This document shows positions 6,674-60,379 of a DNA stretch of 64,000 nucleotides, one piece after another. Position numbers and translations under genes: made by a program. Every line of letters starts with the position of its first letter. Within the stretch, counting starts at the first letter, position 1. Under the pieces are notes generated by a model. That model worked only from the letters and a program-made list of their open reading frames with translations. It was not told the DNA's origin and searched no databases. This DNA is from a virus. The stretch is from the IMG/VR virus record IMGVR_UViG_3300032223_002435, positions 1 to 64,000 of that record. One strand, 5' to 3'.

Positions 6674-7561
6674 TTAGGCGAAGCAGATGTCTTTAATAAA
6701 GGTTTGCCAGTTATCAATGTCTTCTTTGAAAAGGGGCTGGGTTGGCGTTTGGGTAATGACGGAATCAATTTCTTCATTGGTGAGTAGGTGTTCAGTACGG
6801 ATGTAGTCAGTCATGCGACCGGAGCGAGTTTTGGTGGACGATCTCCATAATCCCTCGACTGACTTGAGGTGTGGGTGTGCCCGACTCTCAATCATCACGA
6901 TTTTCTTGAGTAATTCCTTACCCATGGAGTGAAGTTCGTGAGGCTTGGTAGCTGGGCAAAAGTAACAAGCTGACTTTGCTGGCACCGGTATGCCTTCGGC
7001 GGCGATGACGGCCTTGCATTTCTCTCGATCCCACCCCCACTCGATGAGGGGGTACTCATAGGAATACAGGGGATCCTCTAGGGAGCCGGCGTGATTGCGT
7101 CGACGCATATCGGCTGCGCCCGCATCGTAGCCGATCATTTTGCGAACCTTGCCGCCAGCAGACCAGCACTCCAGAGCAGGCTTCCAAGACTTCGCCCATT
7201 TATCCTGGGGCTGGATCTTCCATTTTTGAGAACAACTCTTAAATCCGAATGCAAGGCTCGGGAGAGTCGAGTTAGTGAGGAGGTTTTCTTCAAGGGATGA
7301 GTAAGGGGGCCAATTCTTAAAGTTCTTCGGTTCATATCGAACCGTGGTCAAGGCAGGAAACCCTACTTTCTTGAGCCAATCTTCAATCACTGCACCATAT
7401 GCGTAGGTATCCGGTTTTTCTGATCCAACATCGGCAAATACAATGGCATCCGGGCGATCACCGCGATTCTTTAGGCCGACCAAGAGCGCGGTCGAATCCA
7501 CCCCCATCCCATAGGCCACCATGAGGGGTGGGGTTACTTGGAATGGAAGTTGTTCCGTCAC
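6674..7561 (-). CDS. PAPS reductase-like PP-loop (adenine nucleotide alpha hydrolase) protein
   Basis: A 295-residue protein with the PP-loop YGMGVDST (residues 17-24), a variant of the SGGxDS ATP-pyrophosphatase loop, then IVFADVGSEKPDTY as in PAPS reductase-like enzymes. A Cys pair CYFC (199-202) and an earlier CSQKWK could bind an iron-sulfur cluster or zinc. Relatives include sulfonucleotide reductases and DndC-type DNA sulfur-modification enzymes; phage homologues have mostly unknown substrates. It begins with GTG in a GTGA overlap with the preceding gene. A nucleotide- or base-modifying or sulfur-transfer role is inference. Confidence 0.82.
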   Translation of the reverse strand: MTEQLPFQVTPPLMVAYGMGVDSTALLVGLKNRGDRPDAIVFADVGSEKPDTYAYGAVIEDWLKKVGFPALTTVRYEPKNFKNWPPYSSLEENLLTNSTLPSLAFGFKSCSQKWKIQPQDKWAKSWKPALECWSAGGKVRKMIGYDAGAADMRRRNHAGSLEDPLYSYEYPLIEWGWDREKCKAVIAAEGIPVPAKSACYFCPATKPHELHSMGKELLKKIVMIESRAHPHLKSVEGLWRSSTKTRSGRMTDYIRTEHLLTNEEIDSVITQTPTQPLFKEDIDNWQTFIKDICFA

Positions 7562-10394: not shown

Positions 10395-10642
10395 TTTGAC
10401 CTAATCTCAACGCTCACCCACTCGTCGCAAGTATCGCCGGTCACATAAAGATTAGGATAGGCTTCCTTGAGGATCTTGATAATGCGACGGGCCTCGATGA
10501 TGTCTTTATCACCAGGGCACTCTCCCCCGACATCTCCGTGATCTCTGGTGCTTATCGAGATAAGGTCAGAACAAACGCAGTCTTCATCAAACCAAGTTGA
10601 CCCAATGGTTTTATTGATTTGGCTGATCGTGGGTAGGCTCAT
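10391..10642 (-). CDS. Hypothetical protein, 83 aa
   Basis: Contains a Cys-rich, Asp-rich N-terminal half (DEDCVCSDLI, GDVGGECPGD) and an alpha/beta end (IKILKEAYPNLYVTGDTCDEWVSVEI). Coupled by ATGA to both neighbours. Unknown. Confidence 0.6.
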   Translation of the reverse strand: MSLPTISQINKTIGSTWFDEDCVCSDLISISTRDHGDVGGECPGDKDIIEARRIIKILKEAYPNLYVTGDTCDEWVSVEIRSK

Positions 10643-12228
10643 TTTAGTGTGTGTGGATCAACATTTCCGAACGATTTGGGAGGAAGGATTGCTAGGTCGG
10701 CTTCCTTTTTCGCGGCGTCAACATTGAAGCCGATTAGATTCGACATATACCGATAATCCATTTCGTAGAGGTGGGCATCCATGAGGCGTTTTGGCTCTGG
10801 AATGAGGCCCAGCAGAACCGATTTGACATGGGGCCATAGGGCTTCCTTTCTGGGCGCGGCTTTGGCTCGGGTGAATGGGCTCTTTCGGGATGACCCACCC
10901 TCGTCGCAATAGCTGTAACCATCCTCGTCGCAATAGCTGTAACCATCATCTACGCACTTGAGGGGTGGGTCTTTGATTTCAAAAACTTGCTCCCATCGCT
11001 TTGATTCGTTCGGCTTAACGACCGATCCGGTAATCTTGTATGGAAGGCCAAAAGTGGCAATCACACGATCAATATCACAGGTGAGAGATTGCAGGGTGGC
11101 TTTTTCCAGAGCCAACACCAGCTTCTCGCGGACTAGGAGCCAACGCTTGCCTTGAAGAGCATTGATTTTCTTTTCGAGCTTCTCGGCGGGTGTTGACTCC
11201 TCCTTAACTTTGCCGTCCTTGGTCTTGGGGTTATTAAGGTAGCGGATAGAGAGCTTGCTGTCGCCATCAACAAAAGCCACCGGCTTACCAGTCTTACCCC
11301 ACTTGTGCGTTTCGTAGTCGCGGGAATAATGCGTTCCCTTAATGACTATTGGTGTTTCGGAAATAACCGGCAGATTAACGCCGGCCTCCTTACAAAGCTC
11401 GTCGTACTGATGGTCGATGTACAGCGAGAGACGCTTTTTGAAACACACCCCGTTGAGGCACCGAGCGCAATCCTTCTTCTTTCCATCTTTGAAGTCGAAG
11501 ATGTCGGCTTGCTTGGAGCTATCGGTGGCACAACCTGGGCCGCAATCTTTGACGAAGAACTTCGGGTCATGTAGGTCGAAGGGAGCATCCTTGAGTGAAG
11601 GAGATTTCCTCTGGATATATTTGAGCAACTCGTCGCGAGTGGAGCATTGGTTCCAGCGATCATCTGCAATTTCAGATTGCTGCTTAACGCTTAACGATCC
11701 AAGCAACTCCATCATGTCGATGGAGAAGTGCCTAATACTGCTCTTTGGGTCACGCCAGGTCTTGAGGATCTTAGCATTGACCGCCAGCAACTTGATGCGG
11801 CGGCGAACCCATGTCTCAGCCTTACCCATGTAGGCGGCAATCTCAACGGCGGTCTGACCACGCTCGTGAAGTTTGAAGAGAAGCTCGGCCTCGGCCTTGG
11901 GATCTGGATTCTCGCGCTGAAGATTGTCCACAAGAATGGCGGTCTGGAACTCGTCCTCGCTCATGTCTCTGACGGAGGCGCGGAGCGTTTTGATGCCGGC
12001 CACTCGGGCGGCAACGCTACGGCGAGCACCGGCGGCGATCTCATAGTGCCCCTTCTTCGTGGGATGCGGACGGACAAGGATGGCAGCGGTCTGCCCCATG
12101 GTCGCAAGCGAAAGGGAAAGTTCCTTGATGCCGGAATCCGTCTCCTTGGGCTGGCGTGTGTTATGCTCCGAGATGTGGAGCTTATCAACAGGGATGTCGA
12201 TGGTGGTGGTTTCGATGGTGGTGTTCAT
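10639..12228 (-). CDS. ParB/Spo0J-like protein with Cys-rich insert
   Basis: A 529-residue protein. Residues about 10-110 form a ParB N-terminal (CTPase/nuclease-like) domain with ISEHNTRQ, GARRSVAA and VDNLQRENPDP, followed by a helix-turn-helix (QTAVEIAAYMGKAETWVRRRI) near residue 135. A Cys cluster (CGPGC, CARC, GVC; residues about 240-265) may bind zinc, as in ParB-like proteins of plasmids and phages. Near the C-terminus an 8-residue unit DGYSYCDE occurs twice in tandem, matching a 24-bp DNA repeat at 10899-10946. It starts at ATG 12228, coupled (ATGA) to the DUF2958 gene. It may bind partition or regulatory sites; the target is unknown. Confidence 0.82.
   Translation of the reverse strand: MNTTIETTTIDIPVDKLHISEHNTRQPKETDSGIKELSLSLATMGQTAAILVRPHPTKKGHYEIAAGARRSVAARVAGIKTLRASVRDMSEDEFQTAILVDNLQRENPDPKAEAELLFKLHERGQTAVEIAAYMGKAETWVRRRIKLLAVNAKILKTWRDPKSSIRHFSIDMMELLGSLSVKQQSEIADDRWNQCSTRDELLKYIQRKSPSLKDAPFDLHDPKFFVKDCGPGCATDSSKQADIFDFKDGKKKDCARCLNGVCFKKRLSLYIDHQYDELCKEAGVNLPVISETPIVIKGTHYSRDYETHKWGKTGKPVAFVDGDSKLSIRYLNNPKTKDGKVKEESTPAEKLEKKINALQGKRWLLVREKLVLALEKATLQSLTCDIDRVIATFGLPYKITGSVVKPNESKRWEQVFEIKDPPLKCVDDGYSYCDEDGYSYCDEGGSSRKSPFTRAKAAPRKEALWPHVKSVLLGLIPEPKRLMDAHLYEMDYRYMSNLIGFNVDAAKKEADLAILPPKSFGNVDPHTLK
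10899..10946. repeat. 24-bp tandem repeat, two copies, inside the ParB-like gene
   Basis: Two adjacent identical 24-bp units within the ParB-like coding region, in frame, encoding DGYSYCDE twice on the - strand. Typical of recent slippage. Confidence 0.85.
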
Positions 12229-12587
12229 TCGGTGATTTCTTGTGCGGGGGTTGGGTTGAACCAAGTGTCGACTTCGATACCGATGCCCATGCGGCCTCGG
12301 ATGGAGGAGAGCTCCTTGAGCGAGAAAGATCCCCACTCGCCCTCAAATCCTTGGACATACCCAAAACAGATGTCAGAGCCATCCCACTCTTGGACATACC
12401 AAGTAAATGAGCCGGAGGGATCGAACAGCTTTACGCGGAGCGTTGTGTCCTTGGTCGAGCCATTCTCGTCGATATTGTCATCGGAGAAAGGCACTTTCTG
12501 AAGGCGGCACGCCTTTTGCATTAGGGCTAGTTTATTTGCCCCGTAGGTAACTCCTGACTGATTGATGTGGTCGGTTAGGTGGATCAT
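12225..12587 (-). CDS. DUF2958 family protein
   Basis: A 120-residue protein with the DUF2958 pattern: KLFDPSGSFTWYVQEWD, then F-x-x-E-G-E-W-G-SFSLKELSSIRG and a final GIEVDTWF. DUF2958 proteins are common on plasmids and mobile elements, usually near antirestriction and ParB-like genes as here. Biochemical role unknown. ATGA overlaps on both sides. Confidence 0.85.
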   Translation of the reverse strand: MIHLTDHINQSGVTYGANKLALMQKACRLQKVPFSDDNIDENGSTKDTTLRVKLFDPSGSFTWYVQEWDGSDICFGYVQGFEGEWGSFSLKELSSIRGRMGIGIEVDTWFNPTPAQEITE

Positions 12588-15767: not shown

Positions 15768-16012
15768 ATTTCTTCAATGGTTTCTCCAGCTTCGACAAGG
15801 TATCGGTATCCATCGCCATCACTTGCCGACCATCCGCAATAGCAGTTGGACAATCCTTTGTGATCGCCACAATTATCGCAGATCCTTACCCCGCATCCAC
15901 GACTGGATGTTTGGGGGTAGTAGTGACCACAGCCACACTTTTCGGGTTTTTCGCGGCCACACTCGGGGCAATGGTCTTCGCCAAATGGCACGCCGCATCG
16001 TTCACATTTCAT
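15764..16012 (-). CDS. Cys-rich zinc-ribbon protein, 82 aa
   Basis: Starts MKCERCGVPFGEDHCPECG at ATG 16012 in an ATGA overlap with the ArdA stop. At least ten Cys occur in CxxC-type pairs (CERC, CPEC, CGC, ICDNC, CYC), giving two to three zinc ribbons. The tail is acidic. The role is unknown; similar small proteins often bind RNA or DNA. Confidence 0.65.
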   Translation of the reverse strand: MKCERCGVPFGEDHCPECGREKPEKCGCGHYYPQTSSRGCGVRICDNCGDHKGLSNCYCGWSASDGDGYRYLVEAGETIEEI

Positions 16013-16515
16013 CGACGGAATACCCACACTTGATTGTTGTCATCAGTGCTGGTGCAAAATGAATGGGTCAGCTCGGATTCCCAGACTCGGTTCCAATCTA
16101 TACAGGAGGTAATCCAAGTGGGGCAGTCGCTCGGTATCCCACCTGTCTCTTCAGAAAATTGCTGAGCAAAGTCTTCTTCAGAATCATACTTCCCTACAAA
16201 TGCGTCATTTGCATCGGTTATGTTCCGGCCGTTGCCAATGGCGTCATAATACATCTCGACCATCATGCGTTCGTCATCATCCAATTCGAGCCACTCCCAT
16301 ATCTGATTATCGAGACCAGACTCTCCGTAGAAATCACGGGGAAAGTTTTGGAAATCTTGAAACATCAATTCGGGGTCGGCCTCATCTTTGTGAAGCTCGC
16401 GGCATTCCTCGTAAAACGACTCTTTGTCGTGACCCTCTAATGAAACCCACGCCCCATCAATGCTTCCATTATTGTATTTGGCGTAAGTGCCAACATAAAC
16501 AGATGGGTCATCCAT
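16009..16515 (-). CDS. ArdA-like antirestriction protein
   Basis: A 168-residue, strongly acidic protein beginning PSVYVGTYAKYNNGSIDGAWVS, the conserved ArdA start, with a DFQNFP block, long acidic helices in the centre and a closing CIDWNRVWESELTHSF. ArdA proteins mimic B-form DNA and inhibit type I restriction enzymes, protecting incoming DNA. The acidic residue run and length (about 165) agree. It is followed by zinc-ribbon microproteins and preceded by a 65-residue gene in an 8-nt overlap. Confidence 0.9.
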   Translation of the reverse strand: MDDPSVYVGTYAKYNNGSIDGAWVSLEGHDKESFYEECRELHKDEADPELMFQDFQNFPRDFYGESGLDNQIWEWLELDDDERMMVEMYYDAIGNGRNITDANDAFVGKYDSEEDFAQQFSEETGGIPSDCPTWITSCIDWNRVWESELTHSFCTSTDDNNQVWVFRR

Positions 16516-18528: not shown

Positions 18529-19389
18529 TTAGGCAGCAACGACCTTCTTCTTCTTACCCCCCAAATTAACCCCCACAGCCTCGGCGAGTTCGGCGATGCG
18601 GGCGGTGACTACGGCTTGGCTGTCCTCGTCCAACTCGGAGAAGGCCAGCTCGACCGCATTGATAGCGTCCAGAACACCGGCCAAGGTGACACCTTCGGGA
18701 GCCTCAATGGTCTCCTCCTCGGTCTCGTCCTCGTCGGTAGAGGCTGGGGCGGGATGGCCGGCCTTGGCATCCTCGATCTCGGGATCGGACTGCTTGGCGG
18801 CTTTCGCCTTGAGGTCAGCGTTCTCGGCCTTGATCTTCTCGATCTCGACCGCCTCGGCCTCGGCCTTGGCAGTCGCGGCGGCCTCGGCGGCAGCCTTCAC
18901 CTTGTCGGCGGCATCCTGCTTGGCCTTGGCCTCATCGAGGGTCAGGCCGGTCTCGTAGAGACTTGCCAACTCCTCGTCAGGCTCACCGGCCACCTTGACA
19001 ACGGCTACCACCTCCTCGGCGGTGAGTTGCTTGGCGGATCGGGCGGTTTGAACACGGACGATGTTGAAGCAATCCGCGTGGGACAGCCGATCATACTCGG
19101 CCTCGGTCAAGTGTCCGGCCTCGACCAGGCTAAAGACCTTGGCGGCATAGCTGGCGTTGGATATGGAACCCTTGGGGATACCAGCCTTCTGCAGGAGAGG
19201 GAAGATACCCTTATCCTTTTTGGTCAGGCTGGCTTCGATGCAACGGAACAGCTTGCCCATTGCAGAGAAGGCACGCTGTCCGGCTGATGCTTCCACTTGG
19301 AAGCGAGTGACCGCCTCGGCTCGCGTCATTGCGGCGGCGGCGGCGTAGGATAGTGCCTCGATAGGCACTTCGACTTTCGTCTTTTTCAT
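18529..19389 (-). CDS. Ala/Glu-rich coiled-coil protein, 286 aa
   Basis: Not recognised. Residues 1-150 are helical (GKLFRCIEASL, KGSISNASYAAKVF, a possible HTH-like core). Residues about 150-200 are a continuous Ala/Lys/Glu coiled coil. Residues 200-235 are an acidic linker and the end is a helical domain with a Lys-rich tail (GGKKKKVVAA). The leader is unusual: ATAACGGG and CCCGTTAT arms bracket a CAACCC repeat, and the second arm includes the first two bases of the start codon. This suggests translational control of an abundant product. Confidence 0.65.
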   Translation of the reverse strand: MKKTKVEVPIEALSYAAAAAMTRAEAVTRFQVEASAGQRAFSAMGKLFRCIEASLTKKDKGIFPLLQKAGIPKGSISNASYAAKVFSLVEAGHLTEAEYDRLSHADCFNIVRVQTARSAKQLTAEEVVAVVKVAGEPDEELASLYETGLTLDEAKAKQDAADKVKAAAEAAATAKAEAEAVEIEKIKAENADLKAKAAKQSDPEIEDAKAGHPAPASTDEDETEEETIEAPEGVTLAGVLDAINAVELAFSELDEDSQAVVTARIAELAEAVGVNLGGKKKKVVAA

Positions 19390-19546
19390 AACGGGTTGGG
19401 TTGGGTTGGGTTGCGTCCCGTTATCCTTTCGCAGAGTCTTACGATAAGACTCGCGTCAGGATCAGAGGCACAACACGGACGGGACAAGCCGTGTTGCTAA
19501 AATCACGCAGAAACCACGGACGGCTAAACTCGCCGCCGGTAAAAGA
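19390..19546. promoter_or_regulatory. Leader region of the 286-residue gene: hairpins, palindrome copy 4, CCGTCCGT motifs
   Basis: Reading leftward: ACGGACGG motifs at 19516-19523 and 19475-19482, a hairpin CAACACGG/CCGTGTTG (19471-19496), palindrome copy 4 (19435-19451), then CCCGTTAT/ATAACGGG arms (19417-19424 and 19388-19395) enclosing four CAACCC units next to the start codon. No standard promoter boxes are clear. The density of paired elements marks it as a control region. Confidence 0.65.
19435..19451. promoter_or_regulatory. Palindrome AGTCTTA-CGA-TAAGACT, copy 4
   Basis: The only copy in non-coding DNA, 46 bp upstream of the 286-residue gene's start codon, with the 19-bp extended symmetry (G...C). 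Confidence 0.85.
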
Positions 19547-19566
19547 AAACCGGCCTAGGCCGGTTT
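19547..19566 (-). terminator. Intrinsic terminator overlapping a stop codon
   Basis: A perfect 20-bp inverted repeat, AAACCGGCCT/AGGCCGGTTT, whose centre contains the TAG stop of the 197-residue gene (19555-19557). Leftward of the stem the - strand reads into a T-rich run, as expected for a leftward terminator. Confidence 0.7.
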
Positions 19567-20148
19567 CTTGTAGTTAAGTGCCGCGCCAGCCAGCCATCGG
19601 GAAGGCGTATGCGCGCCGCGCCTGCAATCCTTGCCGGAGGCGGTGACATACCATCCGACAGCGGGTCGGGGTTTCTTCTCGGCAGGGCGGTCAGGTAAGA
19701 TAGCCATCGCCTCACGCTCAAATCGCGCGGCGGCATCCGCGCCGCATCGCCGCGCGATCTCCCTCGATTTCTTGATGATCGAGGCAGGGTCAGTATTCGG
19801 GGTGATCTTGAAAGAGTAGTCGCCAGCCGAAACGGACAGCATGGCAATGCGGAATTTCAATTCGACTTGAGAGCCGTCTTTCTTCGTCTTGAATCGGGGC
19901 GGCGAGAAGGGCAGGAAGATTTCGGTCTCTTCCATCTCGAGATTGTCGAGAGTCTTATGGTAAGACTCGCACGATTTACGGGCGACGATGCGCGCGGCGC
20001 GTAGTCGCCGGGCGGCATAGCGATCAGCGGCCAGGGCGGCGGCGGCGGCGCGATCATCCGAGGATGACCACGGGACATTAGGAACTCCCGACACTTGGAA
20101 AAGGCGGTCGGATGCCGAGGCTACAGGTTTGATGGTGGGAAGTTTCAT
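19555..20148 (-). CDS. Basic, Ala/Arg-rich hypothetical protein, 197 aa
   Basis: Not recognised. An Arg/Ala-rich helical stretch (RAAAAALAADRYAARRLRAARIVARKSC, residues about 33-60) is followed by beta strands (ELKFRIAMLSVSAGDYSFKI) and another Arg-rich helix. The DNA is much richer in GCGC than neighbouring genes, as is the next gene upstream, suggesting a separately acquired segment. Palindrome copy 5 lies in its codons for S-Y-H-K-T. Confidence 0.6.
   Translation of the reverse strand: MKLPTIKPVASASDRLFQVSGVPNVPWSSSDDRAAAAALAADRYAARRLRAARIVARKSCESYHKTLDNLEMEETEIFLPFSPPRFKTKKDGSQVELKFRIAMLSVSAGDYSFKITPNTDPASIIKKSREIARRCGADAAARFEREAMAILPDRPAEKKPRPAVGWYVTASGKDCRRGAHTPSRWLAGAALNYKKPA
19951..19967. 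promoter_or_regulatory. Palindrome AGTCTTA-TGG-TAAGACT, copy 5
   Basis: Within the 197-residue gene; a different centre (TGG) with intact 7-bp arms and G/C flanks. Confidence 0.8.
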
Positions 20149-20157
20149 TGCATGAAA

Positions 20158-20189
20158 AAGCCCCGCGCCTCTTCCGAGACGCGGGGCTT
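20158..20189 (-). terminator. Intrinsic terminator
   Basis: AAGCCCCGCG and CGCGGGGCTT form a perfect 10-bp stem; leftward the - strand continues CTTTTTC. It terminates the 254-residue gene just before the next gene's start. Confidence 0.85.
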
Positions 20190-20196
20190 GTGATGT

Positions 20197-20221
20197 TATG
20201 GGGTCGAGCCGTCAGTTATTC
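20197..20221. repeat. Partial (25-bp) copy of the 56-bp repeat at the 3' end of the 254-residue gene
   Basis: Twenty-five bases, TATGGGGTC to GTTATTC, match the third 56-bp repeat unit (21152-21176) exactly. The copy overlaps the stop codon of the gene at 20220, so that gene is bracketed by direct repeats about 955 bp apart. Confidence 0.85.
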
Positions 20222-20984
20222 AGAAAGCCATCATGTCGGCGGCAAGCATGGCGGCATCTATTGAATTGAAGCCGAAGGCGTAGGTCTTGAGCGCGCTGGT
20301 TCGCATTCTCCACGCCGAAGAATCGGTCTCCACTACAGGGCAAAACCCTGCGAAGGGATCAACAGAAGTGACAAGGCGCGCGGCGGTGGACAAGTGACCA
20401 CGAAGCGCGGCGCGCCGTTTGCGTGAAGTGTCCGAGGCGAAGCGCATGAAGCACCGAGCGCGAAGGTCGCGCGCAATGCTGGCAAGGTGGAGGCGGCGCG
20501 CGCTTCCGCGATGATCCTGCGCGCCTAGTGGCGCGAAGTGTTCCAGCGCGTCGAGGATGGTCTCCTCCTCCGCGCGGCTCTGATCGTCGCGCGTGTTATT
20601 GATGCGAAGCAATTTTCGCACCTTCTGGAAAATCTCCGCGATGCCGTCAGTCTTTCGGTGAGTGCCGAGAAGGTACTCTGTGAAAATCTCCTGCGCGGCG
20701 TCCTCCTTGTCGTGCAAGGAAAGGTCGCGCGCTGGGCGCGCGTTCCATGCCGCGCGCCTTGTGGAGATACTGACGCCGCGCCGAGGCTTTTCCGCGATGG
20801 ACTCTCCGCGCGCGATGGTCTCGCGATGCGTCAGGTCTTGCGCGGTGAGTTTCGCCTTGGGTCGCTCGATGCGCCAAATAATGACGGAGGCGAGTTTCGC
20901 CGCCTCTTCAGAAGGCGCGCCGAGCGTGAGGCTTTCGCCGCGCGCGGTGATGGTCAGGGTCGGGGTGGTGGTGGTGGTTTGCAT
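20220..20984 (-). CDS. GC-rich hypothetical protein with weak sigma-region-2-like helix, 254 aa
   Basis: Not confidently recognised. Residues about 89-105 (HDKEDAAQEIFTEYLLG) recall the DAEDxxQExF helix of sigma-70 region 2, followed by helical segments (FQKVRKLLRI, an Arg-rich helix near 150-190). The codon and base use (many GCGC) differ from nearby genes. It is the first leftward gene after the repeat array at 21.0-21.2 kb, which lies in its upstream region. A transcription-factor or replication-initiator role would fit the context, but neither is shown by clear motifs. Confidence 0.55.
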   Translation of the reverse strand: MQTTTTTPTLTITARGESLTLGAPSEEAAKLASVIIWRIERPKAKLTAQDLTHRETIARGESIAEKPRRGVSISTRRAAWNARPARDLSLHDKEDAAQEIFTEYLLGTHRKTDGIAEIFQKVRKLLRINNTRDDQSRAEEETILDALEHFAPLGAQDHRGSARRLHLASIARDLRARCFMRFASDTSRKRRAALRGHLSTAARLVTSVDPFAGFCPVVETDSSAWRMRTSALKTYAFGFNSIDAAMLAADMMAF

Positions 20985-21014
20985 AGGGTGAAATAATGGC
21001 CGAAAAACTACAGA

Positions 21015-21176
21015 TTTTCAACCTTTATCCTTCTATTGATATGGGGTTGAGCCGTCAGTTATTCGACCGATTTTCAACCTTCATCCTTCTATTGATATGG
21101 GGTTGAGCCGTCAGTTATTCGACCGACCTTCAACCTTCATCCTTCTATTGATATGGGGTCGAGCCGTCAGTTATTC
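21015..21176. repeat. Three tandem 56-bp direct repeats (iteron-like)
   Basis: Units at 21015-21070, 21071-21126 and 21127-21176 (last one 6 bp short) differ at one to four positions. Each contains TTCAACCTT, TCCTTCTATTGATATGGGG and GAGCCGTCAGTTATTC. No spacers separate them, so this is not a CRISPR array. They lie between the divergent 254-residue gene and the virion operon, a position suited to replication initiator or repressor binding. Confidence 0.9.
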
Positions 21177-21369
21177 GCGCCCATACGCCAGGACAATTAA
21201 ACATAGTTATGAATAACTAAACATACCGCCGGTAAAAAAAATTTGGTGATATATTAGCCGTCCGTATTTTTTATGTGAGTTAGTATCCGTCCGTGGGTTC
21301 TGTGAGTGGCTTTTAGGATTTCTGCATACCCGTCCGTGGTTTCCATGCGTTGACCAAAGATTTATGGGC
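21177..21369. promoter_or_regulatory. Upstream region of the late (virion) operon
   Basis: An AT-rich stretch with three CCGTCCGT motifs (21258-21265, 21287-21294, 21329-21336), a GTTATGAATAAC inverted repeat near 21208, and GTTGAC (21349-21354) placed 15 nt before ATG 21370. The main late promoter should be here, although no sigma-70 consensus pair stands out. Confidence 0.6.
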
Positions 21370-21618
21370 ATGGCTTCACTCGAATGGATGGAAATCTACC
21401 GGACTTACTCTCCGGCGGAACTTGATGCGGAGATCATCGCGCTCAAAGGGCAGGCCACCCTCTACACAAGCCAGACTATGGGTGAAAAATCCTACGCCAA
21501 AGATTTGGTGATGGTTCAAAACCGGCTTCAGGCAGCCGTCCGTGTTCGAAATGAGAGGTCGAGTCGTTACACCAATCCGTCCTATGGCGTTCCTGACTTC
21601 TCCAGCGGAGTAAACTAA
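21370..21618 (+). CDS. Head-tail connector-like small protein (gpW/DUF6148-like), 82 aa
   Basis: Begins MASLEWMEIYRTYSPAELDAEI; two helices flank a short beta hairpin (YTSQTMGEKSYAKDL...), the layout of lambda gpW-type and DUF6148 proteins that sit just before the portal. ATG 21370 is preferred to the ATG 6 nt earlier because GTTGAC then lies at the standard 15-nt distance. It overlaps the portal start (TAATG). Confidence 0.6.
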   Translation: MASLEWMEIYRTYSPAELDAEIIALKGQATLYTSQTMGEKSYAKDLVMVQNRLQAAVRVRNERSSRYTNPSYGVPDFSSGVN

Positions 21619-23357
21619 TGAGCGCAAAGATCAATTTCCTAGACAGAGCAATCAGTTTTGTTTCCCCAGAGGCCGGTGTTCGTCGCGGCATGGCTCGGTC
21701 ACAGCTTCGGTTGTTTGGTTACGATGCGGCTAATCCTGGCACAAAGCGTGGGCGTTCTGGAAGTGCATCCAAAAACGCTTCTTCCGAAAACTGGCGTAGT
21801 GCTCGCGACCGCATAAACCTCATGTGGGATAGCCGCGATGTCGTGCGAAATTTTGCCATTCTCAGAGGCATGGTTGCTAGGATCGTGCAGTATGTCTGTG
21901 ACGGAACCAGCTATATTTCGCAGACCGGCGATGAGGGGGTTGATGGGGCATACCAAGATTACTTCAACCAGTGGGCAAAGAACGCCGACATAACAGGGCG
22001 CCACAATTTTAGCGACCTGGTGACTATGGCCTTCTGGGCCATGCTTGTGGATGGCGATCATGGCTGGAACATGCTGACCATGCCGGTCGGGGGGGCGCCG
22101 ACAATTAAGATCCAACCGATTGAGGCCGACCGCATCGGGAATGTGTATAACCCTGCGGAGACGAACGAGGGAAATAAGATTGGCGGCATCTTGGTCGGCG
22201 ACATGGGCGAGCCCTTGGCATACGAGATCTACAAGCGTGGCCGGCTCAACGTCCAATACACCTTTGAGCAAGAGGTGCCGGCAGAGCAGTTCATCCATCT
22301 CTTTGACCCTACCCGAGTCGATCAGTATCGAGGCATTACCGCCCTCGCTACGGCAATCGCCCCCGCCCGCGACCTGTACGAGATCTACGAGTTCGAGATA
22401 CAAGCGGCGAAGTGGCAAGTCGGCCACGCTGGCGTGATCCGAGTAGCAGATCCCTTCAAACAAGGCTCGGTCAGCCAATGGGACGGCAATACGGAGCCTG
22501 TGACGAGCACTGGGGTCGGAACTGTCCAGATGGAGCCCGGCAAGATCCTGCGGCTCACGCAAGGCGAGGATGTGACCTTCTCCCCTGGCACGAACCGACC
22601 CAACGGAGCATTCCTCAACCTCGTGCAAACAATGGTCAGGGAAATGGCCATGGCGCTGAATATGCCCTACGGCTTCCTCTACGACATGAGCACGTTCGGA
22701 GGCCATGCCAGCCGCATCGAGATCGCTCAGGCACAGCGTTGCATCCGTCGCTTCCAGAAGCTCCTCAAGGAGCAAGCCCTAGACCCCGTCCGCAATGCCG
22801 TGCTGGGGCTCGGCATCAGCGAGGGCGTCATCCCTGCCCACCCCCAATGGCAGAACGGCCGCTGGGGCTTTGGTGCCAGCCTCTCAGGCGACTACGGCAA
22901 CGACACAGCCGCCAACCTCCAGAAGTTGCAAGCCGGCCTCATCACTGCAAGCGACCTCATCTCCGAAGGAGGGCAAACCTTTGAAGAAGTAACCCGCCGC
23001 CAAGCCTCTGAAGTGCAGTATATGCAGAGAGTAGCGGCCGAGACAGGTGTGCCGATCGAACTCTTCACGACCCGCCTCTCCGGTGCCACCGAACTGCTGG
23101 CCGCCATGAACACGCCGCCACCTGCTCCCCCTGCCGGCTTAGTAGAAGCTGGCACGGACGTGAAGCCCATGATCGACATCCTCAAGAATGTCGGAGACGG
23201 CGTGATGGATCGTCAGAGTGCCATCAACACCCTCATGCAGATGTACGGCATGAGCAAAGCCGAGGCCGACAAGATCGTGCCAGAGTACCAAGAACCAGAG
23301 GTAGTTGCTGCTCCTGCGACACCCTCCAAGCCAGCCGATAAGGCTAAAGAGAAATGA
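21618..23357 (+). CDS. Portal protein, lambda gpB type
   Basis: A 579-residue protein with family hallmarks: an early SARDRINLMWDSRDVVRN segment, DGTSYIS, LVDGDHGWNML, then IEADRIGN, a FEQEVPAEQFIHLFDP strand and GITALATAIAPARDLYEIYEFE, ending in the conserved crown/tunnel helices around SRIEIAQAQRCIRRFQ. It forms the dodecameric DNA entry ring that docks the terminase. The C-terminus is Ala/Pro/Lys rich. It is coupled by ATGA to the giant glycine-zipper gene, where many phages have the protease. Confidence 0.92.
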   Translation: MSAKINFLDRAISFVSPEAGVRRGMARSQLRLFGYDAANPGTKRGRSGSASKNASSENWRSARDRINLMWDSRDVVRNFAILRGMVARIVQYVCDGTSYISQTGDEGVDGAYQDYFNQWAKNADITGRHNFSDLVTMAFWAMLVDGDHGWNMLTMPVGGAPTIKIQPIEADRIGNVYNPAETNEGNKIGGILVGDMGEPLAYEIYKRGRLNVQYTFEQEVPAEQFIHLFDPTRVDQYRGITALATAIAPARDLYEIYEFEIQAAKWQVGHAGVIRVADPFKQGSVSQWDGNTEPVTSTGVGTVQMEPGKILRLTQGEDVTFSPGTNRPNGAFLNLVQTMVREMAMALNMPYGFLYDMSTFGGHASRIEIAQAQRCIRRFQKLLKEQALDPVRNAVLGLGISEGVIPAHPQWQNGRWGFGASLSGDYGNDTAANLQKLQAGLITASDLISEGGQTFEEVTRRQASEVQYMQRVAAETGVPIELFTTRLSGATELLAAMNTPPPAPPAGLVEAGTDVKPMIDILKNVGDGVMDRQSAINTLMQMYGMSKAEADKIVPEYQEPEVVAAPATPSKPADKAKEK

Positions 23358-26300
23358 GTGAATTATTTCGCAAGATAGAGGAGGCCGCGCGCCTTGGTAA
23401 AAAGAAAGGTCGCTCAGGCCGACTTGTTCCCAATCGTTCCGAGCTGTTCCCCCCACGCCCTAACCCCCTCCCCCCGAGTGATAAACGCTGGGATGAGGGG
23501 CTAGAGGGGATTCGCCAAATAAAAGCGGCTCTTGCGAGTGGAAAAAAGGAGTTTTCTGCCCTAAGCGATACCGAGAAGGCCGTTTGGAGGCATTACTTCT
23601 CTAGGGAGTTGACCGCCCTCCTAAAAGGAATGAAGCAATTCCAGTCTTACGCTAAGACTCCAGAAGAGGAGCGTCATGGCCTTTTAAAAACAGCCATCGG
23701 AGCCGCTGGCCTTGCCGCTGGCCTAACTGGAGCCGGTCACGCACTTAAGGGGACTGTTGCCGCCGCCGAACGTGCTGACATTGCTCGCAACGCTGTGAAT
23801 CGCGTCGTTCGTGCCCAGCGGAACGCTAAAGCCGCCGCCATGGGTGTTGCCGCTGAGAAAGCCAAGGGAGCCAAGACCGCCGCAAAAGCTCGATACAAGG
23901 CCGGTAATGCCAGCTTCAAGAAAGCCGCTTCAAACCCGAATCTCTCCAAGGGAGAGAAGGCCGCATTCAAGCGTGCTCAAACTCGCTGGCAGGAGGCAAA
24001 TCCCAACAACGAATTCGAGACCGTCATTGTTCAAAACCAGAAGCGTGATGCTCTTTCCAAGATTCGTGATGCTGCCAGCCTTGCCGCCAGCGTGGGATCG
24101 CTGGGCCTTTTGGGCTACGTCGGTTATCGCGGGCACGGGCTATACAAAAAGGTTTCCAAGGAAATCCCCAAGGTTGCCGCAACATTTCATGAGCACGCCC
24201 CCGCCGTTGCCGCACACGCCAAGGAAACCATGTCCAAGGTTTCGAGCGCGGCAGATGCTATCAAGGCAACCGCAGCCTCTGTGAAAAACGGACCTATCGC
24301 TGACGGAGCCCCAAACGTGCTGAAGCGCGATAAGAAAGCGTTTTCTGACGAGAGGAAGCATTCGGTTCTTCTTCCCTTGATTGGGGGTGCCGCCATAGGG
24401 GCTGGAGCTGTCGCTATCCCCCAAGTGGCAAGGGCCGCCCGTCGCGTGGAAAAAGTTGCTAAAACCAATCTTCGGAAGGCAGGAAATGTGGCTGAATCTG
24501 TGGGTAGGACCCAGGATAATGTCAAGCACAGCACGTCGATCTATGCTGACCTTGGCAGAATCTATGGCGAGGCCAAGGGTGGCATTTACAACATCCTTCA
24601 TCCCATCAATACATGGAAAGAAACCAAAGCTGGTTTTAAAGCCGGGATGAAGGGCAAAAAAAGCTATGCAACTCGCCCTCGCCCCGATTGGGCATTGTCG
24701 GCAAAATTGAAGATTAAGGAACTTGCTGAGGATTTCCGTCGCTATGAAGATGGCGTGCCATTTAACGGTAGGGTAGCCCACGATCGTTTCATCAAGACAA
24801 TCCATGAGGGGGATCTTGACCGCCGTGATCGGAATATCGTTCACGCCGCCGTTGCCGGCGGCCTAGCTGGAGCCCTTGTTCGTGGGCGCAAGCCAGTTCT
24901 CAACAAGGTCGCTATTGGAGCCGCCCTCGGTGCAGGGGGCGTCATAGCCGTTCGCGGTGCTACTAATCATAGCCGCGATATTTATGGAGATCGCCCCCGC
25001 TGGGCAAAGCAGGCAGAAAACATCCCTGCACTTGCTGGTACAGCCGCGATTGCTGGCCTAGCCGCCAAGAGAGCAAAGCTGTTTGCTCGGAAGAATATGG
25101 TCAGGGCGCTGGCTAACCCTCACTTTTTTGAAAAGCAGTCTAATCCAACTATCAAGGCTGCTATTTTAGGCGGAAGCACAGGAGCAATCCTTGGGGCTAT
25201 TCCTGGGTTAAAAATGAAATCAACGCTTGCCGGAACCCTTACGAGCATTGGAAGAGGTGCTGCCTTGGGAGGATCCCTTGCTGGAGGCGGTACCGCAATC
25301 GGAACGGCTATTCTTGGTAAACCTAAAAATCATGAGGGCGCTCCAGTAACGAAAAGGGCCGCTCTTGGAGGAGCTATTGTTGGCGGCATTCTTGGAGGCA
25401 CTGGCGTAGTTGCCGCGAGGAAATTCCCCGCATCCGTCAAGTGGACTGGCATCAACCTTGATAAACTTGCCAATCCCAAAACAGGATGGCGACCGGCCGC
25501 CTTCATGAAGAAGGCACCCCTTCCATTGGCAGCCGCCGCTGGGGCTGGCGCTGGCGCTGTAGTGGGTGGATCACACGCCGCAGATGAGGGGCAAGAAGTG
25601 GATACAGTGAATTCTCTTCAGGGAAAAAAGAAATTCTTTGAAGAATTCCGTGGCTATTCGCCATACGACGACGTAGCCGATGCGCGCAAACAAGCGTTCC
25701 ATGCAAGTGGCGTCACTGCCGCCGTGGGTATGGCCGCCGCCGCAGGCCTCGGCTATCGCGGTGGATCTAAAGCTCAATTTGCGCGGACTGCCTCTCGTGT
25801 AAAGAAGTCGTTTAAAGAGACGAAAACCGCAAAGGCTTCCGCAAGAGCATGGCGTTTTGCCAGCCAGCAAGATTCCCAGCGTGCATCTAGGGCGGAAGCT
25901 CAAGCTAGGGATTGGGAGAATAAATACCGCAACGCTTCCTCGTCATCCAAGGGGGCAAGCAATTCTTCCCGCCAAGGCCCCCCTCCCCGTCATCGAGCCA
26001 AAGGCCCAACCAACCCGCACGCCGGCACTGCAAAAGCCGAGAAATGGGAGAAATGGCAGTCTATGAAACGAACAGCTTCCGAAAGCAATCACGAGGGGGA
26101 GCGTACCGCCGCTCAAGCCGCCGCTGATAAATGGCAGAAGAAATACAACCTCGCTCGCAAGATCAAGACCACACTCAAGGAGTTTGGTTTCTACAACCAG
26201 CCTCGCCGCGCTGGCGAGCAAGTCGGAACCGATAAGAACAACAACCCTCGCTATAGCCGCGAGCGCGGAACCTTTGCTAGCCCTGTTCGCTCGGCATACG

Positions 26301-44886: not shown

Positions 44887-45654
44887 ATGGCCGTTCCTGT
44901 TATCAATACGACTCAAAGCATCTTGAGTTATCGACAATGGCAAGCAAACGTATTTCAGGCAACTGCAACAAATTCTCCTAATCTATGGAGGATTTCTCCC
45001 GCTCCTCCAGTTGGAATGTCATTTGATTCAGCCACAGGCAGGGTATCCGGCAAGCCTAGCTTGATGGGCATCTACAACTTCACTCTTGGAGCACAAAATG
45101 CAGATGGTTGGAGCGCGCCAGCCGCTTTTACGATTGGGGTCTATTATTCCGAAGGTGACTTCACTTCCATTCGTCTGAATGCTGATATCGATGTGGCAAC
45201 GCGTGCTGTAGTGGTAACTCCAGCAAATACAGAAACTCCACTTCAGGGGCAGGCCACGCCGTTGCTCTCGCTGAAGAACAATGACGATCTTCTCTTAAAA
45301 GTTGTTTTTAAGAAAGATACCTCTCCGTTGGATCTTCAGCTCACTTCTTTGTATTTTGGAGTCAAGGACGTAGATACATCTGCGTTGATACTAAAATCCC
45401 AAATTAGTGATTGGGAAAAAGTGGTGGCTCAGGACGGCGCGACTGTCACTTCCTACTATCTGATCTATATGAAGATCGGAAGCGATATGCTCACATCAGT
45501 CCTCAGTGACGCTGAGGCCGATACAGGCACCTTCATTGATGCGTATGGTGAGATCGAATGGATCATGGACAGCGCCAATGAGGTTGGCCCGGCATCTCTA
45601 AGAAATTCCACTGATACTTTCCGAGTGCGGATTACGAGGGATCTCATTGCTTAA
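44887..45654 (+). CDS. Tail protein with N-terminal putative Ig (He_PIG-like) domain, 255 aa
   Basis: Residues about 33-85 read WRISPAPPVGMSFDSATGRVSGKPS...YNFTLGAQNADG, the signature of putative-Ig (He_PIG) domains used in phage tails for surface binding. The second half is an adaptor-like beta domain ending in VRITRDLIA. GTTGAC lies 15 nt before ATG 44887. Confidence 0.7.
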   Translation: MAVPVINTTQSILSYRQWQANVFQATATNSPNLWRISPAPPVGMSFDSATGRVSGKPSLMGIYNFTLGAQNADGWSAPAAFTIGVYYSEGDFTSIRLNADIDVATRAVVVTPANTETPLQGQATPLLSLKNNDDLLLKVVFKKDTSPLDLQLTSLYFGVKDVDTSALILKSQISDWEKVVAQDGATVTSYYLIYMKIGSDMLTSVLSDAEADTGTFIDAYGEIEWIMDSANEVGPASLRNSTDTFRVRITRDLIA

Positions 45655-53408: not shown

Positions 53409-53597
53409 ATGAAATCTTGCCCTCAAAACACAGAGGCAAGATGCGATTGCCGAGACGCTGATGTGTTTTTATCCATCAAGGCTATTGCATATATGCTTCG
53501 GGATGGGAGCCTAGAGCCTAGAGACGCTGCAATTGCACTTCTCCTTCTTTGTTCTTCTCCAAGCAGAAAAAGCCGCCATGTTCGGCACCATGACTAA
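53409..53597 (+). CDS. Hypothetical protein, 62 aa
   Basis: ATG 53409, ending in a TAATG overlap with the phosphoesterase gene. N-terminal Cys/Asp-rich, then helix (SIKAIAYMLRDGSLEPRDAAIALLLL), with a basic His-rich end. Function unknown. Confidence 0.5.
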   Translation: MKSCPQNTEARCDCRDADVFLSIKAIAYMLRDGSLEPRDAAIALLLLCSSPSRKSRHVRHHD

Positions 53598-54565
53598 TGA
53601 GCAAATTCGCCGTCAAAAAGTTTCAGAACGATGCCCATGCGGCTGAGATAGATCGCCTTAAGCGGGAACTAAAGGCATCAGAGGCGTTGAGATCCAAGAT
53701 GGCCCTTTCGTTTGATCGGCATTTGCGCGCCAAGAAACCTCGTTCAATTGTTCCAGCAAGGCCTCGGAATGGCAAAGAGGATCTTGTGCGCGTTATCATT
53801 CCAGATACTCACGGCGCTAAGGTGGACAAGGGGGCGCTCGCCGCCTGTCTCGGTGACATCAAGGCGCTTTCCCCGGATGAGGTGATTTTATTAGGAGATC
53901 ACGTCGACTGCGGGGGTTTCCTGGCCCAGCACCACGTCATGGGATTCGTGGCGGAAAGCGACTGCACGTATGAGTCAGATATTGCAGCCACAAATGCCTT
54001 TCTGGATGCACTGCAGGGCGCTGCGCCGCGCGCCAAGATCGAGTATATCGAGGGAAATCACGAAAGACGGATCGAGCAATGGGCTATGACACAGACGCTC
54101 CGGAACTCGAAAGACGCAGAGTATCTAAGGCGGGCTTTTGCCCCTGAATTCCTTCTCAAGTTGAAAGATCGCGGAATTCCTTACTACCGGCAGGGTGAAT
54201 GTTACGATGGGCTTTCGCTTCAAGGGACGATCCGGCGAGGCAAGTGCTATTTCACCCACGGATCGAGCACCAGCAAGCAGGCAACAACAACAATGCTACA
54301 AAGTTTCGCTGGTAACATAGTTTTCGGTCATACGCATCGAGAGCAATCATCGAGCGCGCGCCCCGTCCACACCGGCCAAATCAAGAGCTGGAATCCAGGG
54401 TGCCTTTGTGAGTTGCAGCCATTGTGGTGCCACACCCAGCCCACCGCCTGGTCGCATGGACACGCTATCCAGCTCGTCGCCCGCTCGGGTGAATTCCTTC
54501 ACCTCAACATTCCGATCATAAAAGGCAAATCGCTCCTAGGATCACTTGCAGCCAAATTTCAATGA
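53597..54565 (+). CDS. Calcineurin-like metallophosphoesterase, 322 aa
   Basis: Metal-binding motifs in order: IIPDTHG (D and H), LLGDHVDCGG, IEGNHERRI, a YFTHGSS His and VFGHTHRE. This is the full signature of the calcineurin-like superfamily. The N-terminal 50 residues form a charged coiled coil. Phage members hydrolyse nucleotides, DNA ends or protein phosphates; the substrate cannot be told here. Coupled by ATGA to the next gene. Confidence 0.88.
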   Translation: MSKFAVKKFQNDAHAAEIDRLKRELKASEALRSKMALSFDRHLRAKKPRSIVPARPRNGKEDLVRVIIPDTHGAKVDKGALAACLGDIKALSPDEVILLGDHVDCGGFLAQHHVMGFVAESDCTYESDIAATNAFLDALQGAAPRAKIEYIEGNHERRIEQWAMTQTLRNSKDAEYLRRAFAPEFLLKLKDRGIPYYRQGECYDGLSLQGTIRRGKCYFTHGSSTSKQATTTMLQSFAGNIVFGHTHREQSSSARPVHTGQIKSWNPGCLCELQPLWCHTQPTAWSHGHAIQLVARSGEFLHLNIPIIKGKSLLGSLAAKFQ

Positions 54566-54792
54566 AACCTCCAACACTTTTACAGGTCAAATCTCAACGG
54601 AAACCAGATCGGATTCCAGCGGGATGGTTTACGCGCCAGCAACTTGAAAACGAGTGGAATCTCTCACGCGACTATGCCGGCAGTCTCATCAAGCAAGCCA
54701 TTATTGAGGGAAAGGCCGAAATGAAAAAATTTCTTATCCCCACACCAACGCGAGGATTATACCCAACCCAACATTACAAGTTTAGGTTATGA
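54562..54792 (+). CDS. Small DNA-binding-like protein, 76 aa
   Basis: A probable winged-helix or HTH unit: GWFTRQQLENEWNLSRDYAGSLIKQAIIEG, resembling MerR-like or MarR-like recognition helices. Basic throughout. Coupled by ATGA on both sides. No named family. Confidence 0.6.
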   Translation: MKPPTLLQVKSQRKPDRIPAGWFTRQQLENEWNLSRDYAGSLIKQAIIEGKAEMKKFLIPTPTRGLYPTQHYKFRL

Positions 54793-55169
54793 AAAAACCG
54801 GCTCGCATCAAAACAAAGGTGCTTCCGTTAGACATTTATCATGACTCTATCGTCTTGGTATGGCCGGTCACGCCTGAAAAAGCGACTCAATGGTGCAAAA
54901 AGCGAGGCTACAAAGATTTAGACCCCTTGGATCCAACCGATGCCGCTGCCACCTATAGAGTGGAAGGGGGGTCGGTGCTCATGCTTACAAGCTGGGATAC
55001 CGACATCGACCACCTTAGCCTGCTGGCTCATGAGGCCGTCCACATCGCATCGGATATCCTGCGAGAAAAGGATGTGAAGGAGGTTCAGGGTCAAGAAGAA
55101 GCCATGGCCTACTTGATCGGGCTCATCATGAGACAGCTGCTCAAGGCGCTGACAGGGCTAAGGCGATAA
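54789..55169 (+). CDS. Minimal zincin-like protein with HEAVH motif, 126 aa
   Basis: Contains LLAHEAVHIASDIL with HEAVH at residues 81-85 and a downstream QEEAMAYLIG that could give the third zinc ligand (Glu). This matches small phage zincin-like proteins. It is unlike the other two HExGH proteins in the window. Role unknown; immunity to or modification of host proteins is possible. The end overlaps a convergent ribbon-helix-helix gene by 12 nt. Confidence 0.7.
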   Translation: MKKPARIKTKVLPLDIYHDSIVLVWPVTPEKATQWCKKRGYKDLDPLDPTDAAATYRVEGGSVLMLTSWDTDIDHLSLLAHEAVHIASDILREKDVKEVQGQEEAMAYLIGLIMRQLLKALTGLRR

Positions 55170-55337
55170 ATACTCGCCTTGCACTAAAAGTTTTTTTTGT
55201 CGCAAATCTTGGTTCACTAGGTTGGCCAGATAATTGGAAAATGATCGTCCTTCCATTTGCGCCGCCTTTCTACCAAGGACTTTGGATTTGGGACACATGC
55301 GGAAGGTGGTAATTGTTTTCTTTTCGATCTGATTCAC
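55158..55337 (-). CDS. Ribbon-helix-helix-like regulator 1, 59 aa
   Basis: GTG start at 55337, stop TAG at 55158-55160. Pattern: EKKTITTFRMCPKSKVLGRKAA then GRSFSNYLANLVNQDL, the beta strand plus two helices of CopG/Arc-type DNA-binding proteins. Shorter than 60 residues, hence easily missed. It lies on the opposite strand to the flanking genes and probably acts as a regulator of the lysogeny region. Confidence 0.65.
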   Translation of the reverse strand: MNQIEKKTITTFRMCPKSKVLGRKAAQMEGRSFSNYLANLVNQDLRQKKLLVQGEYLSP

Positions 55338-59180: not shown

Positions 59181-59382
59181 GGCCGACCCTGATCGCCTTG
59201 AGTGGCCCAAGACGCTGGCTCCCCTTGTTGGGCTCCACGCCAATCAGATCCAATTCTTGAGAAAGAAGGGATGTCCTTTCTATGGCCGCAAAACAACCCT
59301 CAATTGGGTTCGTGGATTTCTGGCAAAGGAGGCGGGAGCGCCGGCACCTTTAGAAGAGCTCTCCGCGCATCCTCAACATTGA
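59170..59382 (+). CDS. Excisionase-like winged-helix protein, 70 aa
   Basis: MTTEADPDRLEWPKTLAPLVGLHANQIQFLRKKGCPFYGRK is a MerR/Xis-like DNA-binding unit (helix LAPLVGLHANQIQFLRKKG). It overlaps the end of the convergent integrase gene by 83 nt, the classic place of xis in temperate phages. It would steer integrase towards excision. Assignment is by context and fold pattern. Confidence 0.6.
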   Translation: MTTEADPDRLEWPKTLAPLVGLHANQIQFLRKKGCPFYGRKTTLNWVRGFLAKEAGAPAPLEELSAHPQH

Positions 59383-60379
59383 GCTTGGAATAGATTCGGT
59401 GAACCAGATCAGTGCTGTGATTAACCAACCGCATCGCTTCCGCTTGGGAGAGACCGGCCCGGTGGCATCGTGTGATGAAGGTCACGCGACAGCTATGGCT
59501 GGTCGCTCCGCAGGCTCGCTTGAGGATGCGGTTAAACTTCCTATTGGCATGGTTGTTTCGGAACTCATCGGGTCCTCCGACAATCTCAGGAAGCGTGAAT
59601 CCATCATGCCACTCAATGCCCTGCAGGAAGGTGGCGAGATGCTGACTCATCGGAACGGTAAATACCTTTCGAGGGTCATTCTCGTCTCGCTTGGAGTCCA
59701 CAAGAAGGATGGTCAGGTTCTTGAAGTTGATGTTCTCCTTTGCAATTCTAGCCTCGTTGAATCTGCAGCCGAGGTTGATCAGGATCTCAAAGCAGACACG
59801 GCACCATTTCTCTTCGGGCCTAGATCCCAAGAACTTCAGCCTGGCCTCATGGATGTCGTTATCATCCAATTCCGCTTTCTCCTTGGGGGGCTTTTTGGCG
59901 ATGATCTCCCCTCCCAAGACATTTCGTTCGGCAATACGCTTCCGAATGGCCTCTTTCATGATGAAGCTGAGGAATTTGACCTCGGCCCTCGCGGTATTAT
60001 GGGAGGCACCGGCCTTCTTGCGCCAAGTCATGTATTGGTGAGCGTGTTCGTGCTCGAGCTCTCGGGGGTGCCGGATCTTTTGGGAGAGAAGCCAGCTTTG
60101 CAAATTGCTCCAGAAATGATGAGCGCGTTGGCGCGTCTTGATTTTCAGGTAATGGCTCTCGATGTAGGCCGGAACCCACTCTCCAAAATCATCGCCCCTA
60201 TTCGGGCTAACCATCGCCTCTTCTTTGCTCTTCTTGGCGGCCTGCTTGAGCGCGGCCGCAGTTTCTTTGGCGTCATCAATCCGAAGCTTGAGATTCTCTC
60301 TCACCCAAACCCCTGTTTCCAAATTGCGATACCTCAAGTGCCAGAACGGGCTTCGGTCGCGCTTGGTCAGGTAAGCCAT
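59300..60379 (-). CDS. int: Tyrosine recombinase (phage integrase)
   Basis: A 359-residue protein with N-terminal arm-type domain, SAM-like core-binding domain (residues about 65-160) and catalytic domain: R206 (GCRFNEAR), H295/R298 (SHSCRV, the HxxR motif), H321 (VNHSTDL) and the nucleophile Y330 (RIYSKL). The Lys of the beta-hairpin is probably in the KRDENDPRKVF block. It integrates phage DNA at the att site, which should lie directly upstream (60380-60642). Starts at ATG 60379. Confidence 0.92.
   Translation of the reverse strand: MAYLTKRDRSPFWHLRYRNLETGVWVRENLKLRIDDAKETAAALKQAAKKSKEEAMVSPNRGDDFGEWVPAYIESHYLKIKTRQRAHHFWSNLQSWLLSQKIRHPRELEHEHAHQYMTWRKKAGASHNTARAEVKFLSFIMKEAIRKRIAERNVLGGEIIAKKPPKEKAELDDNDIHEARLKFLGSRPEEKWCRVCFEILINLGCRFNEARIAKENINFKNLTILLVDSKRDENDPRKVFTVPMSQHLATFLQGIEWHDGFTLPEIVGGPDEFRNNHANRKFNRILKRACGATSHSCRVTFITRCHRAGLSQAEAMRLVNHSTDLVHRIYSKLNVEDARRALLKVPALPPPLPEIHEPN

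Follow-up and report, generated by a model that had tools for sequence, protein, structure and literature searches.

A fast-changing tandem-repeat array beside the gene for a basic protein: a possible self-specificity control region in a group of phages

Iteron origins, of which iteron plasmids and the ori/O region of lambda are examples, have an initiator adjacent to their repeats, and plasmid partition loci of the single-protein or parC type carry repeats upstream of an autoregulated gene whose product binds DNA. Type III toxin-antitoxin loci are represented by ToxIN and CptIN (PMC8860590, PMC4627078), and the immunity regions of temperate phages by cI with its operators in the lambdoid phages and by the repressor and stoperators of cluster A mycobacteriophages (PMC9283540, PMC6550527). 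Here we describe a phage locus, within a window of 64 kb (the whole stretch of DNA that was analysed, 64,000 bases), that shares traits with each of these. Like phage immunity regions it has repeated, putatively cognate sites near divergent early genes, an apparent specificity that differs between close relatives, module exchange and, now and then, a lone site among the early genes; like iteron origins it sets direct repeats by AT-rich DNA with a basic-protein gene adjoining, site and gene being exchanged together; like type III toxin-antitoxin loci it has a single protein gene immediately preceded by tandem repeats; and like the partition loci it has repeats upstream of the gene for a candidate DNA-binding protein. 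It is unlike immunity regions in that the adjoining protein, p254, lacks a recognisable repressor domain and the sites, tandem units of 36-89 bp built around a 22-bp core, are long, and unlike the many, dispersed stoperators of cluster A in having one lone site per genome, in two phages. Literature searches returned no matching system.

The window is part of a 66,603-base phage record whose ends overlap by 123 bases, so that the phage genome is circularly closed. The surroundings are of phage character, with genes for terminase, the lambda-type portal and major head and tail proteins, for a sliding clamp, for helicases of the SNF2- and Dda-like kinds, and for ArdA, a ParB_N protein and a tyrosine integrase, the last encoded by seven of eight genomes of the group. 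The array separates p254, p197, p286 and the clamp, which run leftward, from p84 and the portal, which run rightward, and the window has the following features.

10639-12336: ParB_N-domain protein
18529-19389, minus strand: p286, conserved, kept in relatives, outside the cassette on its left
19506-19523, minus strand: CCGTCCGT-type element between p197 and p286; in the exchanged pair the left breakpoint falls at a motif of this kind
19555-20148, minus strand: p197, second cassette gene, basic (pI 10.0), GCGC-enriched
20158-20189, minus strand: terminator-like GC-rich inverted repeat followed by a T-run, directly after p254 and the lone core; relatives are similarly arranged after p254
20197-20221, plus strand: isolated 25-bp core copy, TATGGGGTCGAGCCGTCAGTTATTC, identical to 21152-21176 in unit 3
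20220-20984, minus strand: p254, basic 254-residue protein (pI 10.0) with no family assigned, first gene left of the array and candidate array ligand
21010-21065, plus strand: array unit 1, core GGGGTTGAGCCGTCAGTTATTC at 21043-21064
21066-21121, plus strand: array unit 2, 96% identical to unit 1, core at 21099-21120
21122-21177, plus strand: array unit 3, 91% identical to unit 1, core GGGGTCGAGCCGTCAGTTATTC at 21155-21176
21201-21219, no strand: AT-rich palindrome ACATAGTTATGAATAACTA, kept across relatives, right cassette edge in the exchanged pair
21258-21347, plus strand: three CCGTCCGT-type direct repeats (21258, 21287, 21330) preceding the rightward genes
21364-21618, plus strand: p84, conserved, right of the array and outside the cassette, kept in relatives, divergent from p254
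21618-23357, plus strand: portal protein, outside the cassette
59300-60379, minus strand: tyrosine integrase-family protein, suggesting a temperate or plasmid-like life cycle

The original prediction had described three near-identical 56-bp units upstream of minus-strand p254, the last 25 bp of which recur exactly across that gene's stop codon, and both statements hold: the tandem array at 21010-21177 is the top-scoring one in the window (TRF period 56, 2.9 copies, score 302), and the isolated copy shares two bases with the stop codon (20220-20222, minus strand). The pattern GGGGTYGAGCCGTCAGTTATTC occurs four times in 64 kb against 0.00 expected, and the whole 66,603-base record contains no additional repeat copy.

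A terminase search turned up 30 relatives and portal alignment yielded 33 portal-bearing loci, all of them metagenome assemblies in which independent lineages are few and phylogenetically related. Homologues of p254 (about 26-53% identity) stand at the same position, divergent from p84-portal, in G003, G005/G006, G008, G001, G016 and G018; G017 has one by profile match (E 1.7e-8), and L120 (CAMCIN010000141.1) shows a weak match, again in the same position. Single-protein searches of viral contigs with p254 and with the portal returned no relatives, and an exact 18-mer of the unit had two matches there, both within an unrelated coding gene and put down to chance. Twelve lineages carry their own version of a tandem array at this site, with two to five copies, periods of 36-89 bp and strongly differing sequences: 56 bp x3 in the window phage (G000), 56 x3 in G003, 67 x2 in G005, 89 x2 in G008, about 68 x3 in G001, 83 x2 in G016, 48 x4 in G018/L105, 67 x4 in G017, 77 x3 in L096, 36 x3 in L098, 54 x2 in L097 and 46 x5 in L120, where copy numbers from short-read assemblies are uncertain because in G017 and G018 the contig ends partway through the array, and where L097 and L098, whose contigs end short of the p254 position, show the array without its gene. 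The MAG under which the L120 contig is filed is one of Akkermansia muciniphila, which may point to Verrucomicrobiota as hosts or may reflect a binning error. The portal match in the near-identical G005 (21872-23602) and G006 (53465-55195; loci L042 and L043) has one internal TGA flagged, which may be the frame end.

Comparison of relatives with and without the gene tied the two together, since arrays lie beside p254 and none of the five lineages without detectable p254 (L099, L101, L106, L107, G015) has an array at this site. The array is 47% identical between G000 and G003, the flank next to it on the right 78% and the start of p84-portal 73%, so that the array changes faster than its surroundings. 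When units are aligned on their AT-rich block, a 22-bp core following that block is common to them, and the spaced motif GGG-N16-TTC recurs in nine of the 12 lineages, a level at which no spaced motif in 100 shuffled sets arrived (seven at most); G017, L096 and L120 keep the core spacing, not all of the letters. Copies of the core within one phage match each other fully or almost fully, while the linkers between them vary in both length and sequence (G000, G001, G005, G016), and the core is therefore probably the functional unit of the array; its spacing is without helical phasing. The isolated 25-bp copy in the window is this same core, and G006 has a lone core of its own (22 of 24 bases, 45192-45215), both lying in array orientation and each adjoining the stop codon of a minus-strand ORF. 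A pattern search for lone copies in G008, G016 and G018 found none.

The array moves with its genes. G024 (locus L096) and G018/L105 are 95-99% identical across most compared stretches on both flanks, and one block of about 2.0 kb, comprising array, p254 and p197, is wholly different and has been swapped as one cassette. The exchange was seen in one contig, G024, where a chimeric assembly is a residual possibility, although near-identical DNA joins both sides. The left breakpoint of the exchange is at a GGACGGC (CCGTCC-type) motif before p286, the right one in the stretch from the array edge to the conserved AT-rich palindrome; both are at conserved sequences outside the repeats. A cassette, which had been proposed earlier, thus exists, but its extent is array plus p254 plus p197 and its limits are not the repeats. 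The L096 protein at the p254 position (307 aa) has no BLASTP or profile similarity to p254 that we could detect, and the pairing there therefore rests on position, size and charge.

Each of the ten phages examined has a basic protein at the p254 position (pI 9.0-10.7). Searches of p254 against Pfam, NCBIfam, PADLOC and PHROGs gave no convincing match and no HTH or other DNA-binding fold, no solved structure of similar sequence was found, and no relatives turned up in bacterial genomes; p254 is without a recognisable relative beyond this phage group. AlphaFold models it as a helical protein, with low confidence (pLDDT 65 and 61), and PDB fold searches with these weak models gave no convincing match. 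A sigma factor identity (ECF/sigma-70, region 2) gained no support, the likeness of DKQDAAQEVF... being visual only, with an hhalign probability of 2.6% and no Pfam hit.

The explanation that we favour, tentatively and short of an even chance, is that the array in cis and p254, perhaps with p197, in trans form a self-specificity control module with immunity-type operators in a probably temperate phage; taken as a whole, the locus suggests a lock-and-key control region telling one virus from another. A basic phage protein (p254 or p197) would recognise the 22-bp cores between the leftward early and the rightward structural genes and, once bound, would control its own expression as well as the start of the early programme, much as an immunity repressor acts on operators. 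Each phage would carry its own version of key and lock, exchanged as a block. We infer that p254 binds the cores and affects transcription, and that the cassette version would set immunity specificity. What was observed in favour of such a module is the array itself, the core spacing, the co-occurrence with p254, the joint exchange, the positive charge of p254 and the integrase in seven of eight genomes, the integrase being what points to lysogeny in the group. The lone cores and the faster change of the array also speak for the module; against it speak the lack of a recognised DNA-binding fold in p254, cores that are not in helical phase, and the dissimilarity of the L096 protein to p254. As in an immunity region, 12 lineages have several near-identical sites where leftward and rightward genes diverge, and sites and adjacent gene are exchanged as a module between G024/L096 and G018/L105. 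If correct, this would be a specificity switch in a phage group without, as far as searched, a closely related annotated phage record, and it would predict which phages of the group can coexist in one host. The locus also offers a natural series of about a dozen site/protein pairs, including one swapped between near-identical phages, and is therefore usable to read how protein-DNA (or RNA) specificity changes.

The main rival to an immunity-type module is an iteron origin, in which the cores would be iterons for p254 as initiator, the AT-rich blocks would aid strand opening, and the cassette would be swapped in the manner of lambdoid ori/O modules. We consider this unlikely, though it retains an appreciable share of the probability: the direct repeats beside AT-rich blocks, the adjoining basic protein, the joint exchange of site and gene, and the sliding clamp gene in the same leftward set as p254 (in G000 and G003) all fit an origin, whereas the array periods (36-89 bp) are, unlike those of iteron origins, unphased and much longer, and p254 yielded neither an initiator fold nor a match to an initiator family. 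GC skew is weak in phages, and in G000, where it is weak and shaped by gene direction, the cumulative skew turns at about 66.4 and 41.0 kb and not at 21 kb; the extrema of G001 and G006 also lie elsewhere, and only that of G003 is near (20.0 kb against an array at 20.5 kb). The earlier proposal of an iteron-type site for the adjacent protein is supported in part: a binding-type array that would belong to p254 is retained on comparative grounds, because the two co-occur in relatives, the core has a fixed length and the exchange is joint, but the skew of G000 gives no origin here.

The repeats could alternatively be tandem early promoters, each minus-strand unit acting as a weak sigma-70 promoter (KYGAAT-N18-TTANTA) into p254, which would then be a rapidly evolving protein of early host takeover whose gene has a terminator to itself, the identity of the repeats reflecting slippage and concerted evolution. 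GAAT and TTANTA/TATAAG-like blocks do occur at fixed spacing in most units and a terminator-like hairpin lies just after p254. This reading is rather improbable, as it leaves unexplained both the identity of the core interior between copies despite drifting linkers and the joint exchange of array, p254 and p197. A PF00940 search for a phage RNA polymerase that would go with T7-like promoters (CTATTAAGGG) was without match, but so was its control, and the silence therefore says little against such promoters.

Sequence composition adds a further dimension. The claim that p254 and its neighbour are unusually GCGC-rich was confirmed: GCGC occurs 47 times per kb in p254 and 4.3 times per kb across the window, and p197 is enriched too. 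In G000, G003, G017 and L096, GCGC and CGCG together reach 75-115 per kb across about 0.8-1.2 kb on the left of the array, drop through p197 and are near background in p286 and mostly so right of the array; in p254 they stand at about two to five times the expectation from its amino acids and the phage's own codon use. In G018, G001, G016 and G008 the same left stretch is rich in A/T runs instead, so that the near-identical pair L096 and G018 are of opposite word-bias types. The bias, whether GCGC/CGCG or A-tract, is confined to the left-side cassette in the window (19555-20984) and in relatives L060, L070, L096, L150 and L151, and we know of no explanation for a DNA word bias confined to a cassette. 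A new class of self-recognition locus strikes us as quite improbable; in it the hypervariable array would change in step with the word make-up of the genes and with two basic proteins of no known class, for instance because a protein loads at the array and spreads over the word-rich DNA (1.6-2 kb, one array side only). Shared 3-mer usage between array and gene was weak (matched r 0.32 against 0.20, permutation p 0.019), failed in the window phage and was discarded.

More doubtful still is a partition or incompatibility locus, with the array as a centromere bound by p254 in a single-protein system of a plasmid-like prophage: repeats do lie upstream of one basic protein gene and a ParB_N-domain protein is encoded at 10639-12336, but an integrase is present and, unlike in partition loci, the search for a motor NTPase in the cassette was negative. 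About as doubtful is an RNA element, in which the repeats would be transcribed and function at the RNA level, a type III antitoxin to p254 or p197 being one example. The repeats precede the gene as toxI precedes toxN, and several arrays fold better than shuffled DNA (z to -6.7 in L098 and -6.5 in G003); folding is, however, not general (z near 0 or positive for the G000 plus strand, G005 and G017), and paired positions vary by lineage. A conserved RNA hairpin was discarded on the same pattern of strong folding in some arrays and none in others. Unlike type III loci, the short gap between array and p254 in G000 shows no terminator by inspection and relatives share none, no lineage-wide RNA fold is seen, no match in Pfam, NCBIfam, PADLOC or PHROGs is named for the ToxN, CptN or TenpN toxins, and Rfam gave no match. 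That recombination between the array and the 25-bp copy brought p254 in or can remove it, as a cassette flanked by direct repeats, has next to nothing left to it, for although the copy is an exact direct repeat of unit 3 some 0.84-0.96 kb from the array copies, p254 is positionally kept in relatives, none of three whole genomes (G001, G003, G006) has a far-end copy, and the actual exchange boundaries fall outside the repeats.

Several smaller observations concern the surrounding DNA. The AT-rich palindrome right of the array is single, with no second copy in the window phage genome, and has perfect 14-bp arms in G017. CCGTCCG elements stand at 19482, 19523, 18461 and 18117 on the minus strand and at 21258, 21287 and 21330 on the plus strand, before leftward and rightward genes alike. 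The leftward gene set includes an ArdA-type antirestriction protein (16009-16515) and a phosphoadenosine phosphosulfate reductase-like gene (6674-7561). GTTGAC lies about 10-30 bases 5' of the ATG of many rightward genes (21349, 27082, 29446, 29948, 32207/32217, 33005, 34506, 41176, 44866, 49276; genome count 18 on the plus and 6 on the minus strand); Shine-Dalgarno sequences are not obvious at the genes so preceded, and the GTTGAC before p84 is kept in relatives.
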